A stretch of 64,000 bases of DNA, taken from positions 124,001-188,000 of the forward strand of contig OZ004592.1 of the NCBI GenBank assembly GCA_963924555.1. Direction: 5' to 3'. The notes under the pieces were generated by a model, which was given only the letters and a program-made list of their open reading frames with translations, was not told the DNA's origin and searched no databases. How positions within the stretch are numbered: position 1 is the stretch's first letter; each line of letters opens with the position of its first letter. This DNA is from Crambe crambe. Lineage: Eukaryota; Porifera; Demospongiae; Poecilosclerida; Crambeidae. Shown one piece after another: positions 3,703 to 60,727 of this stretch. The translations under genes and the position numbers were made by a program.

Positions 3703-6700
3703 ATGGCCTTCAGTTATGGCTTAGCCAACGGGACAGACGTGCCTACTGAACACTTAGACTATGACCACATTGGAAACTGTAACAGTGCTTCAGAAGTTGA
3801 AAAAATCTTGAAAATCTTGACGTAAGTAACCAGCCACACATGTGACATGTTTTACAATGTGAACCTGTACAGGTCCAACGAGGAAGGCTACTATCCAGAG
3901 TTGATAAAATTCACTGAAAAAAAACTTGCTGAGCTGAATCCTAAAAGGTGTGTTCCTTTAAATAATCAACTGAATGAAAACTAGATGCAATACTTTTTAA
4001 CAGCAAGTTGTTGATAAAGACAGAACAGGCAAAAAAACTGAGTGACCTTCCACTCGCCGACTCACAGAACATAGCAGCTGAACTTGAGGTCAGTAACTAG
4101 AATCACTTCAGAGAATCTTCTATCATCTTTCATCGACAGCAATGGGAGAACCAGGTCACCGGGGAAGATGCCAGCCTCCAGGCATCACTCCTTGCCAACC
4201 AAGGACTGGGAGGTGACTCCTTGGTCAATGGAGGAGAGAGTACACTACCTCCTATCAGGACGGCGGGCATTATTGGTGTAAGTATGAGAATATGGTTCAT
4301 GTTGCCTACAAATTACTAGCATTTTAACGATTTGCAGGAGAAGGAAGAAGAGGAGAAGCAGTCTTCAGGCAAAGCAGCTCAGACAAACAGGATCAAATCC
4401 AGTGATTATCATTCTTGGGATAAGTTTGATGTGGAAAAAGAGTGTGCAAAGGCAGAAAAAGATGAGGAGGGCAAGAAGAAGGAGAAGAGTGAGGTCTCAA
4501 ACTCTAACTGCCAGCCTCTAGATGTAAAATTATCAGAGAGAGGTAACCAGCTAGACATTAAAAGTCGATGGAATAATTTTATTATGTCTTCCATTAGAAC
4601 TCAGTATGTCTGCTGTGGAGAAGGAAAAGCTGGCACTGAGAGAGAAGAATAAGGGAAATGAGGTCAGTTGCTGCTGGAATATAATATTACATTAATTTTC
4701 CATCAGTTATTGTTTCATTATGTGTAGGCATTTCGGTCTGGAGACTACCAAGAAGCACTGACCTACTACTCCAAAAGCATCGAACTGGAAGAGTCAGCCC
4801 CTGCTTATAACAACAGAGCCATTGCTCTCATCAAGTTAGAACGTCATCAAGAAGCCATTCAAGATTGTTCCAAAGTACTCCAATTGGAGCCCACCAACAC
4901 TAAAGGTGCTAAAATTGATATTATTTTGTAGTGATAATCTGTTGTGCTAATTATGATGGCTGTGTGACAGCTTTACTGCGACGAGGAACAGCTTTGGTGC
5001 ACTTGAAGAGATGGGAAGAAGCAGAGGGTGACTTGGAGCAGGTACTCCACCAAGAGCCCAGCAATAAGAGAGCACAGGAACTGCTCAATCAGACAAGGAA
5101 ACAGGGAATCAAAACAGAGCGAGTTCCAACAAAGAAGAAGGGACGCAGAGTTCAAATTGAAGAGGTTGATGAGCGAGAGGAAGACTCTTCAAAGGACTCG
5201 AATGCTAAAGCTGCTACTTCTTCAAGTACTCCCATTATTATGCCCACCGCTGCCCCTAAGGCCCCACCCCCCATCCCTGATGAGGTCTTGAAATTAAAAG
5301 AAAAAGGAAACAACTTATTCCGTAGGGGGCAGTATGGGGAAGCTGTTTCCATATATACTAAGGCCATACACAAATTAGAGAAAGGTAATGCTAACCTGTC
5401 CAAGAACTGTTAATTAGTTTTTAGTTCATATGTCCTTAGCTAGTGAAGACCACACCCCCTCAATATCTGTACTGCTGAACAATAGAGCAGCATGTCACCT
5501 GAAGAATGGAAGTTCCTCATTGTGTGTCACCGATTGCACACAGTCCCTCCAACTTAACCCTGTGAACATCAAGGCCCTTATCCGTAGAGCACAGGCCTAC
5601 GAACACATGGAAAAGTAAGTCGGTTCTCTCTATCTGTAGCTGGCAAACGACTTCACTCTGTCCCTGCAGGTATCGACTAGCCTACATTGACAACCAGCTG
5701 GCTCTGAGTATTGATCGCTCCATGGTCACAGTCTATGAGGCAAACTCCAGGATCAGCAAGCTACTCAAAGATCTTGATGGACCTAACTGGAGAGAAAAAC
5801 TGCCCCAGCACCCTGATGAACCCAGGATGAAACAAGCTCTCTATCAACAGCAAACTCAAAGCAGCACTTCTGCTGGATCTGCTATAAAAGATCCTACTGG
5901 AGCTTGTGAAACAAAACCTCCTACAACAGCTGAAGGTAGCACAAAAGGAGTCAGTGAGACCAACACAAATGCAACTGCTGAGAGCAGTGCAAATAGAGTT
6001 ACTCCTGAGGTGTGTAAAGAGAGTAACAGCAGTGGAAGTAATGGAGTTACTGCTGGGGTGTGTGGGGAGAACAAGGCTAGTAATGGAGTTACTGCTGGGG
6101 TGTGTGGGGAGAACAAGGCTAGTGATAGGAATGATGGGGAAAGTATGGGTATTAATTCTTCAGTTGAAGAAGAGAACAATGCTGAGGCTGAGGTTGATAG
6201 TTCTCCAAACGTCCCAGATGTCAGTCCACCTATCACATCTGCTCCACCACCTGATCCTGTCACCACATCCACTGCCTCACCCCCTCCCACATCCACTGCC
6301 CCACCCCCTCCCTCTGTAACCATATACACTGCCAACAACTTCAAAACAGAGGTCTGTTGTGTATTGAATCAGTATTTGATGGAACTAACACCATGTACCT
6401 TCACACAGGTGACACAAGCAACTTCCCCTGTATCCACCACAACTTGCTCACAACCCACATCTCCCCCTAAACAACCATCCAATTCTGAGAAATTTGAAAA
6501 GGCCAAAACCCAAGGGAATGGTTATGTTAGAAAGGGACAGTACCTGGAGGCCTTGAACTACTATTCACTCTGCATCGATGCATGTCCTGATAATGTGGTG
6601 GGTTTCACCAATCGTGCCCTCTGTCACCTCAAACTCAGTAGCGTGAGTATTCAACATATTTATTGTTGTTGTCGTTGTTATTATTGTTGTTATTTCAGCC

Positions 6701-8325
6701 ACTCAGTGCTGAGGAAGATTGCAGCAAGGCCCTGGAACTAGAGCCAACCAATATCAAGGCCCTGTATCGCAGGGCACTCTCCAGAAAGGTCTGTAATCTT
6801 GTGCAAAAATAGTTTATGAAGCTTAAAATGTTGTCCATAGGCTACTCGGAAGTTTGCAGATGCAATGAAAGATCTGAAGCAGTTATTGGAACTGGACAGT
6901 ATGAACTCTGCAGCTAAAACAGAGTATGAAGAGATCAAGAAAATGTGGGAGAAAGACCTTCGTAAACTTCAGGAAAAAAGCAAGCAAGTGCAAGAAAAAC
7001 CACCTCGGGGAAGTAAAGCTAACCGGCCCAACAAGAAAAAAGTCGGAAGTGATCAGAAGAAGAAGGGAAGTCATCATCAACCTCACCACCACCCCCCAGC
7101 CCCTTCAGTGACAAGTCAGCACGAGGTCTTGCAACAACTCCTTGCCGAAACTAAAACCAAAATGGAAGAACTAAGAAAGGAAGTAACGGACCTTCCAGAC
7201 ACTTCTTCAGAGCATTTGACAGCCAGTAAAACAGCATACTACAACAAGACTCAGAACTTGGGCCAGCAGAATCCAAGACGCAGGAAGAAAATAGTAGTAA
7301 AAGAGGAAGAAGAGACAGTCAAGAAGAAGAAAAAAGAGCCAGTCAAGAACAAGGGAGAGGAGGCAGTTAAGGACAAGGTAAAAGAAGCAGTCAAGGACAA
7401 GGTAAAAGAAGCAATCAAGGACAAGGTAAAAGAAGCAGTCAAGGACAAGGTAAAAGAAGCAGTCAAGGACAAGGTAAAAGAAGTAGTCGAGGACAAAATA
7501 GAAGAGGCAGTAAAGGACAAGGTAGAAGAGGCAGTCAAGGACAAAGTGGAAGAGGATAAGGAAGAAGAGGCAGTCAAGGACAAGGTGGAAGAGGATAAGG
7601 AAGAAGAGGCAGTCAAGGACAAGGTAGAAGAGGCAGACAAGGAAGAGGATAAGGAAAAGGAGGAGGAAGAGGAGCTAGTGGTGGTGAAGCAAGAGGAGAA
7701 GGTGAAGAATCCTCCGCAAGCAACCAAGGGAAAGTGTTCTAAAGAGAGACAAGAGGAGTGTGCTAAACTAATAGTGAGTTCTGTAGTTGTACTGACTATG
7801 TAAGGACTTCTTTTTCTCTCTCTCCAAGACTTCACCATATGAGTTTTCTCAGTGCTGGAACAGCATCCCTCGCACTGGTTCTGCCAGGGAGTATGCCAGA
7901 TTGCTACAGAGAATCCCACCTGGCAAAATACCACAGATCATCACTAATAAACTGGAAGGCCCCATGTTAACCAGTATAATCTCGGCCATCACTGAAGAGT
8001 TTGTTCCACAGGGTAAGGTGTACTGAATAACCTCTTTGCCAGGCAGCTAATTCAAGTCATGTATACCTTTTAGAACGCTATCAGTTAAGTGTGGACATTT
8101 TAGAAAATTTATCAAAAGTACCACGTTTTCAGATGATTGCTATGTTTTTGGGGAAGAAAGAAAAGACAGGTGTGTGCTAAACATAGCATAGCAACCATTC
8201 TTTCATTGTACGACATGTACTACACTGCAGGTCTGTCAAGTATTTTATCTACTGTGGAGGGACTACCTGATATTTCAAAAGCTACCACTGACAATATAAG
8301 AAAGGCTTATGGTGTGAACACGTGA
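3703..8325 (+). CDS. SPAG1: SPAG1-like dynein-arm assembly TPR protein
   Basis: The start codon at 3703 opens MAFSYGLANGTDVPTEHLDY. Exons then give three TPR clusters: one around 4600-5060 (EKNKGNEAFRSGDYQEALTY type), one around 5290-5720, and one around 6480-6890. Low-complexity and lysine/glutamate-rich linkers separate them. The last exons (about 7830-8325) encode an RPAP3_C-type domain containing SPYEFSQCWNSIPR and RYQLSVDILENLSKVPRF. TPR clusters plus RPAP3_C is the SPAG1 arrangement. In animals SPAG1 is a cytoplasmic co-chaperone that helps preassemble axonemal dynein arms with HSP70/HSP90 and R2TP. Oddities are a perfect 42-bp tandem duplication at 6037-6120 and a run of KDKVKEAV-type repeats at about 7361-7640. 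UTP11 starts 72 bp downstream. Confidence 0.9.
6037..6120 (+). repeat. Perfect 42-bp tandem duplication inside SPAG1 coding sequence
   Basis: Two identical 42-bp units (6037-6078 and 6079-6120) encode the 14-residue segment NGVTAGVCGENKAS twice in frame. The identity at nucleotide level indicates a recent in-frame duplication in a disordered linker between TPR clusters. It probably varies in copy number between individuals (inference). Confidence 0.95.
7361..7640 (+). repeat. KDKVKEAV-type 24-bp coding repeat array in SPAG1
   Basis: About ten degenerate units of a 24-bp repeat encode the octapeptide KDKVKEAV and variants (KDKIEEAV, KDKVEEDKEEEA), grading into a pure acidic/basic run. The regular K/E spacing suggests a long charged single alpha-helix or coiled coil separating the third TPR cluster from the RPAP3_C domain. 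Upstream units are nearly identical and downstream units diverge, so the array appears to have expanded from its 5' side. Confidence 0.9.
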
Positions 8326-25566: not shown

Positions 25567-27818
25567 ATGGCGCAGTCAGAGTGGAATATCAGCCCCATGG
25601 AACCTCTGTTCCAGTATCTGGCTGCTAAATCTGGATTTGTGGTGGACCAGGTGAGGATAATGTTGTCTATAGATAGTGACCTCACCTTTACATCTCTCCA
25701 GATTCGTTACATAGTGTTAATGTTGCTGAGTTTTCCAATGGCCATGGTGCTGCGTCATGCTCTCCACCCCAACCACACCTCTCAGTCAGTGCGACACATC
25801 TACTCACTCTCTGTGGGAGTTCTAATGGGCCTCGTCTGCTTCAACTTACAACAAATGCTCCTTCTCTTCTTCATCATTGCAGTCGCCTACCTCCTCCTTG
25901 TCTTCCTTCCTCCCACACATACACAGAGGTAGTTGAGCTAACCTTTTATTACCAACAATACGAATGTGATTTAATGGGTGGTGTAATGGTGTACTCTTTC
26001 AGGTATTCTATGGTTTGGGCTCTTAGCACTATGACTGCCACACATTTCTATCGTCTCTACACTGATTATGGTGGCTATACCTTGGACTTCAGTGGGTATG
26101 TATTGTTAGTGGTTCTTGGAAGTCAACCATTATGTGGACATTGCTTGTGCTCCATTGACATGCTTCTGGTTCTAAGAAATAACTCTTCTGTGTACAATAT
26201 ATGCAGGCCTTTGATGGTACTGGTGCAGAAGGTTACTCTTGTTGCATATGCTCTGCATGATGGTAAGTATGGTGTACTGTAGTGACAGGTATGATTGTCA
26301 CTCCATCAGGTAAGGCAGCTCTGCATGATGGTAAGTATGGTGTACTGTAGTGACAGGTATGATTGTCACTCCATCAGGTAAGGCAGCTCTGCATGATGGT
26401 AAGTATGGTGTACTGTAGTGACAGGTATGATTGTCACTCCATCAGGTAAGGCACGTCTACAGTCTGAACTAAACAGAGATCAGCAAAAACAGAAGATAGA
26501 ATCGTGTCCTGGTGTACTGGAGTATTTTAGTTACATGTTCAATTTCCATTCTTTCTTGGCTGGTCCTTCCTGCACCTTTCGTGAGTATCAGTCCTTCATA
26601 GACGGCTCCAACCTTCGCTGTCCCAAACCTGGCAGTGTAAGATTAACAATAGGCATTTCTTCAATAAATGTAATCTATAAATGTATTCATCTTTTATCCA
26701 TTGCAGACTGAGAAACATACCAGCGAACCATCCACACTTGTGAGTACCTTCTGTTTCTATAATGGTTGATGTTATTCTATCTGTGCAGTATCCGGTCTTG
26801 AGTAATATAGCCTTTTCTTTCCTCTCTGTATTTCTATTTGTCACTCTCAGTGGATATGTCAGTAGTGACACTGTATTAGGTATGAATGTCCCTAGTAAAT
26901 ATCATCACAATCCCCTGGCTTGTATTTCCGTATTACCATAGATCCTCAGCACTCACAGCCATTTCGACTTCTTCTCAATTATGTCAACAGCTTCAGAATT
27001 CGTACTCGCTACTACTTCATTTGGCTTCTTGCTGAGGGTATTAACAACTGTGCAGGTCTGGGTTTTTCAGGCTATGATGAGGAGGGGAAGGCCAAGTGGG
27101 ACCTCGTTTCAAATGTACAAGTCAGGAAGATAGAACTTGCTACTAATATACGACTGATAGCTAGCAGTTGGAATGCTATGACTGCTCTCTGGCTAAGGAG
27201 GTTTGGATTGTTTTGTTACCTAATACCTAGCCTTCTTTCCCTCTGTATAGGTGTGTGTATGAACGAACCACTCATTTCCCCACGATAGTCACCTTCTTTC
27301 TTTCGGCTTGGTGGCACGGCTTCTATCCAGGATACTATTTCTGCTTTCTTTTCTTTGGCGTAACAACTGAAGCTTCTCGAAAGGTGGCTTCTATCTCTTT
27401 GTTATTTGTAAATTCACCTAATTAACCCTCTCTTTCAGATGCGTCGTCTTTTTCGGCACCACTTTCAGGGGAACTCAACTCTGAAAGTGGTTTATGAAAT
27501 TCTGACGTGGTTGGTCACTCACATATTTCTGGACTTTGGAGCAGTGCCTTTAGATTTGATGTTTGCAAGCAGGTCCATCACCTATTGGAGGTATTGATTT
27601 AAACTCTACTCCTTCTGTGTCTGGTACTGACACCTTCCTCTCCTCTGTTGACCATCTGCAGGTATTATTACTTCATTCCAGCAATATTGGCATGTGTTGT
27701 GGCTTTATTCTTCCCCTCGGGCAAAAGTCAACGTTCAAGAGAATCCACCAATGATATCAAGACAGGAGGCTCTAGAGATAAAACCCAAACTGTCACTGCT
27801 TCCAAGAAAGAAGACTGA
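25567..27818 (+). CDS. MBOAT1/2-type lysophospholipid acyltransferase
   Basis: The start at 25567 opens MAQSEWNISPMEPLFQYLAA. Exons encode multiple hydrophobic membrane spans, FYRLYTDYGGYTLDFSGPLM, VLEYFSYMFNFHSFLAGPSC, YYFIWLLAEGINNCAGLGFS, the catalytic-site SSWNAMTALWL (Asn) and FFLSAWWHGFYPGYYFCF (His), and a basic tail ending KKED. This is the MBOAT1/MBOAT2 subfamily, ER-membrane enzymes that transfer acyl groups to lysophosphatidylserine or lysophosphatidylethanolamine and related lipids. Specific substrate cannot be read from sequence. The cytoplasmic-loop exon end LVAYALHDG is followed by a perfect tandem repeat that duplicates an intron and a 21-nt exon (26263-26445). The stop is at 27816-27818. 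Confidence 0.92.
26263..26445 (+). repeat. 68-bp tandem repeat = 47-bp intron + 21-nt microexon (MBOAT)
   Basis: Three identical 47-bp introns (26263-26309, 26331-26377, 26399-26445), each GTAAGT...CATCAG, alternate with two identical 21-nt segments (26310-26330, 26378-26398). Each segment would add KAALHDG in frame after the upstream exon and before KARLQSELNRD. Units are identical at nucleotide level. Exon use is predicted from splice signals. Confidence 0.88.
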
Positions 27819-59313: not shown

Positions 59314-60727
59314 ATGGTAAGTTTAGGGGAGTTTCAGATGCATCTATAGAGTCATGACTGTGCTGTAGTCAGGAGCTACTGGAAAGCAGGAACACTTATA
59401 CAAAGTGCTTGTAATTGGAGACCTGGGAACTGGAAAAACCAGCATCATCAAGAGATATGTCCACCAGTTCTTCTCTCCTCACTATAGAGCAACTGTATCC
59501 TCCCTCGCCTTTCAGGCTGGCCATAGAAAGCTATGACTTACTACTGTCATTTTTGCTCTATTCATTTAGCCAAGTGCCTACCAAGTGTGTTTCTTTCATG
59601 CTTCCTTGACAAGATTTCATAAAGATTGGTGTAGATTTTGCTCTGAAGGTGCTGAACTGGGATAATAATACCACCATCAGACTGCAGTTGTGGGACATAG
59701 CAGGTGCTTGAATGGGTTAGAGACATAGAGAGGAGAGAGAGAGAGAGAGGGTTAGGATCAGGACAGGGAGGAGGGTGTCAAGATCGTGTTGAGACATGTC
59801 CTGTAGCTAAAAGGGAGTTGTTCAGAATCACATGGTGTAATGTAACTTCTTGCACCACTACTAGTTCAACACTTAATCATAATCTCATTTTCCTGCAGGC
59901 CAAGAAAGATTTGGAAATATGACTAGGGTATGTCATACTTATATGTTTTCTGTTTCCGGTTTTCCTTCACTATCTTGTCCTATTAAGCCTGTCCAATAGT
60001 AGCATGTTTCAAATAAGGGACGAGTCTCACCTTAAATACCCACCCTATTTGGTTATCAGTAGTAGCCATGGATATCTCATTCTGATTCTAAATGTCCCAT
60101 TCCTATGTTTAGGTGTATTATAAAGAAGCAGTGGGGGCTTTTGTAGTTGGTTATCAGTAGTAGCCATGGATACTGTGTCTCATTCTGATTCTAAATGTCC
60201 CATTCCTATGTTTAGGTGTATTATAAAGAAGCAGTGGGGGCTTTTGTAGTGTTTGATGTCACTCGGCTATCTACCTTTGAGGCAGTTCAGATGTGGAAAC
60301 AGGATTTGGATAACAAGGTTCTCCTCCCGAATGGCAAACCAATCCCTGCCGTACTTTTGGCTAACAAGGTTTGATTCCTAAATTAATTACCAGACCACAA
60401 TGTACTGTACTTGATTTTCCACATAGTGTGACCTTGCCAGTGAAGGTTTCCTTGGCAATGTCAACCAGTTGGATGAGTATTGTAAAGACAAGAACTTCCA
60501 TGCGTGGTTTGAGACATCAGCGAAAGAGAACCTAGGAATTGATGAGGCAGCTAGGTGTCTTGTAGCAAAGGTCAGTTCTCTTCAATGTAAGAATAGCTCA
60601 CATGATCTCCTCTTTCTCTACATAGATTTTAGAAAATGATGAGACAATAGATCACCCCCAAGGTGATAGTGATGGAATTGTTTTGGACTCTGACCCTCAA
60701 CCGACTAAAAAAGGGAGATGCTGTTGA
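59314..60727 (+). CDS. RAB32/RAB38-type small GTPase
   Basis: Exon 1 contributes only the ATG (59314-59316). After splicing the product reads MSGATGKQEHLYKVLVIGDL, then GTGKTSIIKRYVHQFFSPHY, GVDFALKVLNWD, the Rab32-subfamily switch II WDIAGQERFGNMTRVYYKEA, VGAFVVFDVTRLSTFEAVQM, VLLANKCDLA, FETSAKENLGIDEAARCLVA and a C-terminal KKGRCC for geranylgeranylation. The 'DIAGQERF' wording (Ile-Ala instead of Thr-Ala) is a Rab32/38/29 mark. Members act on lysosome-related organelles and mitochondria. Ser/Thr and Gln of the GTPase site are intact, with GDLGTGKT in the P-loop. The exon beginning VYYKEAVGAF carries a tandem duplication of its own 5' end and acceptor. Confidence 0.92.
60051..60251 (+). 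repeat. Tandem duplication of intron end plus exon start in RAB32/38
   Basis: Copy 1 (60051-60148, 98 bp) and copy 2 (60149-60251, 103 bp) are identical except for a 5-bp insertion (CTGTG). Each contains a TTTAG acceptor (exon sequence would begin at 60113 or 60216) and the first 36 nt of the VYYKEAVGAFVV exon. Copy 2 is the one continuous with the rest of the exon. Confidence 0.93.

Follow-up and report, generated by a model that had tools for sequence, protein, structure and literature searches.

The MBOAT gene and its 68-bp array

The window analysed here, 64,000 nt of the Crambe crambe contig OZ004592.1, holds an MBOAT-family gene in which a short intron and the exon ends around it are repeated in tandem (Table 1). 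The gene model ends in a stop codon at 27816-27818, and its nine introns outside the array measure 49-111 nt and are GT-AG in all nine cases. The family had been named by the first-pass annotation of this DNA, and the 491-aa form of the protein agrees with it, matching Pfam MBOAT PF03062 at 91.7 bits (cut-off 27) and the solved LPCAT3 structure at 98.7 bits (E = 3.7e-27). The conserved Asn and His regions align as SSWNAMT and SAWWHGFYPGY in the sponge protein with ASFNINT and AIWHGLHSGY in LPCAT3. A search of the 143-Mb genome for a second MBOAT1/2-like gene returned none; 6 initial candidates were scored, and 10 of 10 matches were the MBOAT locus itself.

Table 1. Features of the MBOAT gene and its tandem array (positions within the window; D, donor; A, acceptor)
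Feature	Position	Strand	Remarks
MBOAT-family gene (lysophospholipid-acyltransferase type)	25567..27818	+	hand-built model, 11 coding exons, intact
Exons 1-4	25567-25650, 25702-25928, 26003-26095, 26207-26262	+	
Exons 5-8	26446-26636, 26707-26739, 26789-26879, 26942-27200	+	
Exons 9-11	27251-27383, 27439-27590, 27662-27818	+	
Repeat unit 1	26250..26317	+	last 13 nt of exon 4, then the 47-nt intron, then the same 8 nt as at the start of exon 5
Repeat unit 2	26318..26385	+	identical to unit 1
Repeat unit 3	26386..26453	+	identical; continues into exon 5
Intron copy 1	26263..26309	+	donor D1 at 26263, acceptor A1 ending 26309
21-nt block 1, would-be microexon	26310..26330	+	starts GTAAGG right after CATCAG (tandem acceptor/donor)
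Intron copy 2	26331..26377	+	donor D2, acceptor A2
21-nt block 2	26378..26398	+	identical to block 1
Intron copy 3	26399..26445	+	donor D3, acceptor A3
Possible unit-length intron, 68 nt, GTAAGG...CATCAG	26310..26377	+	block 1 plus intron copy 2; candidate from the letters
Second possible unit-length intron, 68 nt, GTAAGG...CATCAG	26378..26445	+	block 2 plus intron copy 3; candidate from the letters

TRF reports 3.0 copies at 26250-26453 with a period of 68 and a 100% match (score 408, the top of 24 rows in the window), and a base-by-base check finds period-68 identity over exactly that span, with an immediate mismatch on either side. Because the bases immediately flanking 26250-26453 both mismatch, the unit boundaries are fixed and there is no rotation ambiguity, assuming that later substitutions did not trim the period-68 match. 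Each unit consists of GCTCTGCATGATG (13 nt, the end of exon 4), the 47-nt intron GTAAGT...CATCAG, and GTAAGGCA (8 nt, the start of exon 5), which means that a whole intron and both exon ends are repeated in three exact copies. The array is real in this assembly. The first-pass annotation was right that the unit recurs without a change, and its coordinates of 26263-26445 do extend from donor D1 to acceptor A3, but the repeat itself reaches 13 nt farther upstream and 8 nt farther downstream. It had also proposed one exonic and one intronic breakpoint, for which the period-68 boundaries substitute two exonic ones, in exon 4 and exon 5.

Left unspliced, the array meets stops in 3 of 3 frames, and excising each intron copy preserves the reading frame. 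Messages with 0, 1 or 2 blocks read HDG-(KAALHDG)n-KARLQ, the blocks sitting directly after the HDG motif, and encode proteins of 491, 498 or 505 aa with all frames open, as had been foreseen both for the seven residues added by each block and for every pattern of inclusion. The first-pass annotation took the blocks to fall in a putative cytosolic loop of the enzyme.

The copies show 0 differences in 136 aligned bases (95% upper bound on divergence of about 2.2%), and the array is therefore young or homogenised. Perfect identity would also be left by an assembly artefact, in which there is one true unit and the extra copies come from assembly error or from merging of haplotypes. We consider that very unlikely, as one locus is found in the 143-Mb genome of 119 contigs, and an array of 204 bp would be short against the long reads presumably used. 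Three identical intron copies could also bring to mind an introner-like mobile intron multiplying genome-wide, for which one would look to similar introns dispersed over many genes. The copies here are strictly tandem with exon ends attached, and the search of the 143-Mb genome gave one locus only: a 301-bp stretch matched its own locus (repeat counts are lower bounds), and a 33-nt block-plus-donor pattern, allowed 3 mismatches, hit nothing but its two array sites. The 22-nt intron core, searched in the window with up to 3 mismatches, gave 3 matches, all within the array, against 0 in 100 shuffles. An introner origin is, on these results, scarcely credible.

Splice options and donor strength

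Each block begins where an acceptor abuts a donor, CATCAG/GTAAGG (the slash marking the junction), at 26310 and 26378, and is closed by a second donor, GTAAGT, at 26331 and 26399. The first-pass annotation overlooked the GTAAGG donor that opens each block. As far as sequence features go, this direct succession of acceptor and donor is the layout of a recursive-splice exon; the whole complex here spans 183 nt, where the typical fly case has a long intron.

Several candidate removals can be read from these sites. Splicing of three 47-nt introns would retain both blocks, whereas introns of 115 or 183 nt would skip one or both of them, and introns of 68 nt would take out exactly one unit and leave the array one unit shorter. 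This last option arises because a block opens with GTAAGG directly after CATCAG, making the 68-nt unit itself a possible intron. A D1-A1 splice recreates a donor where the two ends meet, so that removal could proceed recursively as well. The products of inclusion, skipping and recursive removal are all in frame.

As an indicator of donor strength, we use pairing energies to the 5' end of U1. In the pre-mRNA, the ratchet donor CAG/GTAAGG pairs at -11.6 kcal/mol against -11.0 for the exon donor ATG/GTAAGT, and after the first splice the regenerated ATG/GTAAGG pairs at -8.5 against -11.0. The nine other donors of the gene range from -5.5 to -11.9 kcal/mol, and the array donors at -11.0 and -11.6 each beat eight of those nine. 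Such energies would lean slightly to skipping if a 68-nt intron is removed first, and to inclusion if a 47-nt intron goes first. For recursive-splice exons of Drosophila, the outcome is described as depending on the competition between the two donors, on exon sequence and on prior splicing (PMC8605326).

These values bear on the main alternative, in which the duplication is hidden from the protein. The blocks would be left out of the message by D1-A3 joining as a 183-nt intron, by the 68-nt intron, or by stepwise recursive splicing, restoring the ancestral 491-aa protein, an outcome that we regard as possible though doubtful. The donors at 26310 and 26378 outdo the downstream donor of the block in U1 pairing, as given above, and an intron of 68 nt would not stand out in this gene, which has others of 62, 70, 71 and 74 nt. 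However, on the path that starts with D1-A1, the regenerated donor is the weaker of the two, so that competition favours inclusion, and the sites of the 47-nt introns are the nearer pairs.

Predicted folding would also help to hide the blocks. The first donor region is predicted to pair with the last acceptor at a mean probability of 0.93-0.99 in three spans, with D2 pairing to A2 and D3 to A1, so that the helices are concentric. The 231-nt span folds with z = -2.02, and 5 of 200 shuffles fold at least as well; the single-unit form folded alone gives donor-acceptor pairing of about 0.63. The predicted D1-A3 pairing would favour skipping, but we give it little weight, because concentric pairing is expected of any tandem repeat of a self-complementary unit. 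We also rejected donor-acceptor pairing as a special trait of the array, since 5-6 pairs (G-U counted) are present in 9 of 10 MBOAT introns, the array intron included.

The protein comparisons divide in the same way. The Pfam MBOAT score climbs from 91.7 to 96.4 to 101 bits with 0, 1 and 2 blocks, which indicates that the family profile tolerates a longer loop at the block site and speaks against the blocks being hidden. Conversely, the blocks worsen the LPCAT3 match, which falls from 98.7 to 81.7 bits when both are present, and the MBOAT7 match falls from 44 to 40. Judged by these alignments, the evidence on tolerance of the blocks is split, with the LPCAT3 score going down and the Pfam score going up.

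Origin of the array

The explanation that we favour starts from a 68-bp segment that held intron 4 in full, along with short ends of the exons on either side, and that would have been tandemly duplicated. Slippage or unequal exchange would then have added a third unit, so recently that the copies are still the same at every base. Each 47-nt intron would most likely still be spliced out by intron definition, because every copy keeps the parent intron together with its own flanks. The main message would hold both 21-nt blocks and encode the 505-aa protein, and a fraction of messages would lose one or both blocks, either via the abutting acceptor and donor or via D1-A3 joining, always in frame. 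That the array originated by duplication we hold with high confidence. Predominant inclusion of both blocks is our leading prediction, though we regard it as evenly poised, and the statement as a whole, from duplication and expansion through removal of the 47-nt introns to main retention of the blocks with minor in-frame loss, strikes us as somewhat probable.

In favour of this explanation are the exact 3.00 x 68 array with its boundaries in two exons, an open reading frame whose product matches both Pfam MBOAT and LPCAT3, array donors that are strong by U1 pairing, an intron of 47 nt that is near the other shortest introns of the gene (49, 50 and 51 nt), the rise of the Pfam score with inclusion, and the precedent of Cryptococcus CNN00420 described below. 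Against it stand the lower LPCAT3 and MBOAT7 scores with both blocks, the competing donor of similar strength that opens every block and the predicted folding of the D1 region onto A3. Unit number is probably variable between individuals.

A further reading takes the array as a duplication-born recursive-splice cassette whose copy number rises and falls, each unit being either written into the protein as a step of seven residues or erased by the spliceosome. Exon 5 starts with GTAAGG, and hence each added 68-bp unit would at once be a microexon and its own intron. We think this cassette unlikely; if true, recursive-splice exons could arise directly in this way, and the array would be a coding minisatellite buffered by splicing.

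Comparison with known systems

In the CNN00420 gene of Cryptococcus neoformans, a repeat of about 107 nt takes in exon ends as well as a complete intron, and ESTs support its splicing (Sharpton et al. 2008, PMC2395259). Its unit numbers differ between strains, and its introns are identical, which was explained by repeat expansion (PMC2395259). The MBOAT array likewise repeats exon ends with a full-length, identical intron, but where CNN00420 is EST-backed and strain-polymorphic, the sponge array has a 68-nt unit, a 21-nt block and an acceptor abutting a donor, and is known from sequence alone. The Arabidopsis gene TOUCH3 is described as having tandem internal duplications in which a complete intron is copied along with the exonic sequence that flanks it (Knowles and McLysaght 2006, cited in PMC4974935 and PMC2395259). 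The MBOAT array shares that plan of a whole intron with exonic sequence on both sides, and differs in that its segment is very short and present in three copies. By anatomy we would place the MBOAT array with CNN00420 and TOUCH3, as an apparently unusually small member.

Other systems resemble the array in part. In the potato RdRp gene, an intron was gained by tandem duplication over an intron-exon boundary with reuse of existing splice signals (PMC4974935); the copied segment of that gene includes part of an intron and creates a new one, whereas the MBOAT array multiplies a whole intron, and the potato case is closer to the Rab32-like duplication of the window, described below. The recursive-splice exons m1 and m2 of Drosophila Ubx (PMC8605326) are similar in being short exons with an acceptor then a donor, a second donor at the end, and both skipping and inclusion possible. 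The Ubx exons sit within long introns, and their splicing intermediates have been demonstrated, whereas the MBOAT blocks lie between 47-nt introns, are duplication-born and are predicted from the genome. As in the AG/GT intron gain of Rogers, the duplicated segment carries CAG/GTAAGG, and a unit-length intron becomes possible. The Rogers model takes a purely exonic segment, however, and the MBOAT unit, although it has AGGT, contains a pre-existing intron. Stwintrons (PMC7138796) are also complex intervening sequences, which a single splicing reaction or several in succession can remove, and donor duplication has been proposed as their origin, but in a stwintron one intron interrupts a splice element of another, and in the MBOAT array whole introns stand in tandem. 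Internal tandem duplications of FLT3 were considered as a parallel; one paper is reported to place the insertion sites of 7 of 56 types in intron 14, but duplication of a whole intron is not evident there, and the parallel was set aside.

What is distinctive in the MBOAT array is the combination of 21-nt blocks, 47-nt introns, perfect identity and an abutting acceptor and donor, each unit being a possible exon and a possible intron. It shows intron multiplication, and the possible birth of a microexon, before any divergence. Its 68-nt unit is smaller than that of the close precedent CNN00420 (about 107 nt), a comparison limited to that one repeat length. The abutting acceptor and donor point to a simple way in which mutation could give rise to recursive-splice exons, and no proposal of a duplication origin of this kind appeared among the matches listed, judged by titles and abstract openings. 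If confirmed, the locus would show how the spliceosome chooses among identical sites and whether members of a population differ in intron number.

The Rab32-like duplication and other repeats

The window contains a second repeat that crosses a splice boundary. A Rab32-like gene at about 59400-60727, with a protein match to PDB Rab-32 at E = 2.6e-88, has a tandem duplication at 60049-60249 whose copies of 98 and 103 bp are identical except for a 5-nt indel. The duplication takes in an intron's 3' splice site together with 34 nt from the start of the exon that follows. Joining 59927 to 60216 gives a hand-read protein with NMTRVYYKEAVGAFVVFD, exactly as in Rab-32 chain 4cym. The first acceptor (ending 60112) followed by reading on gives VYYKEAVGAFVVGYQ and then a stop, and the normal protein comes only from the second acceptor (ending 60215). 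The exon copy at 60113-60146 would have to be skipped for a normal protein, and this inferred skipping in the same window is a point in favour of the MBOAT blocks also being left out of the message. A 30-nt in-frame exon at 60113-60142, followed by GTAGTT, is conceivable; it would put ten residues into a highly conserved stretch.

Over 264 kb, made up of the window and the 200 kb that follow it on the contig, TRF lists 26 rows with a period of at least 25, several of them overlapping, and we recognise two arrays as crossing splice boundaries (26250 and 60049). In this survey, stop-free frames were obtained for 15 arrays, and the sequence and flanks were inspected for 4 of them plus the Rab copies. 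Most other arrays are without a gene model, and so two among 26 rows is not a rate.

Some of the other arrays fall in open frames. At 5992-6123, a 42-nt tandem repeat of about 3 copies lies within a 391-codon open frame (5566-6741, +), and at 7304-7672 an array with a 24-nt period, rich in Lys and Glu codons, lies within a 320-codon open frame (6841-7803, +). Three perfect 42-bp copies at L027:6692-6819 form a young tandem array, where the longest overlapping stop-free stretch is 58 codons.
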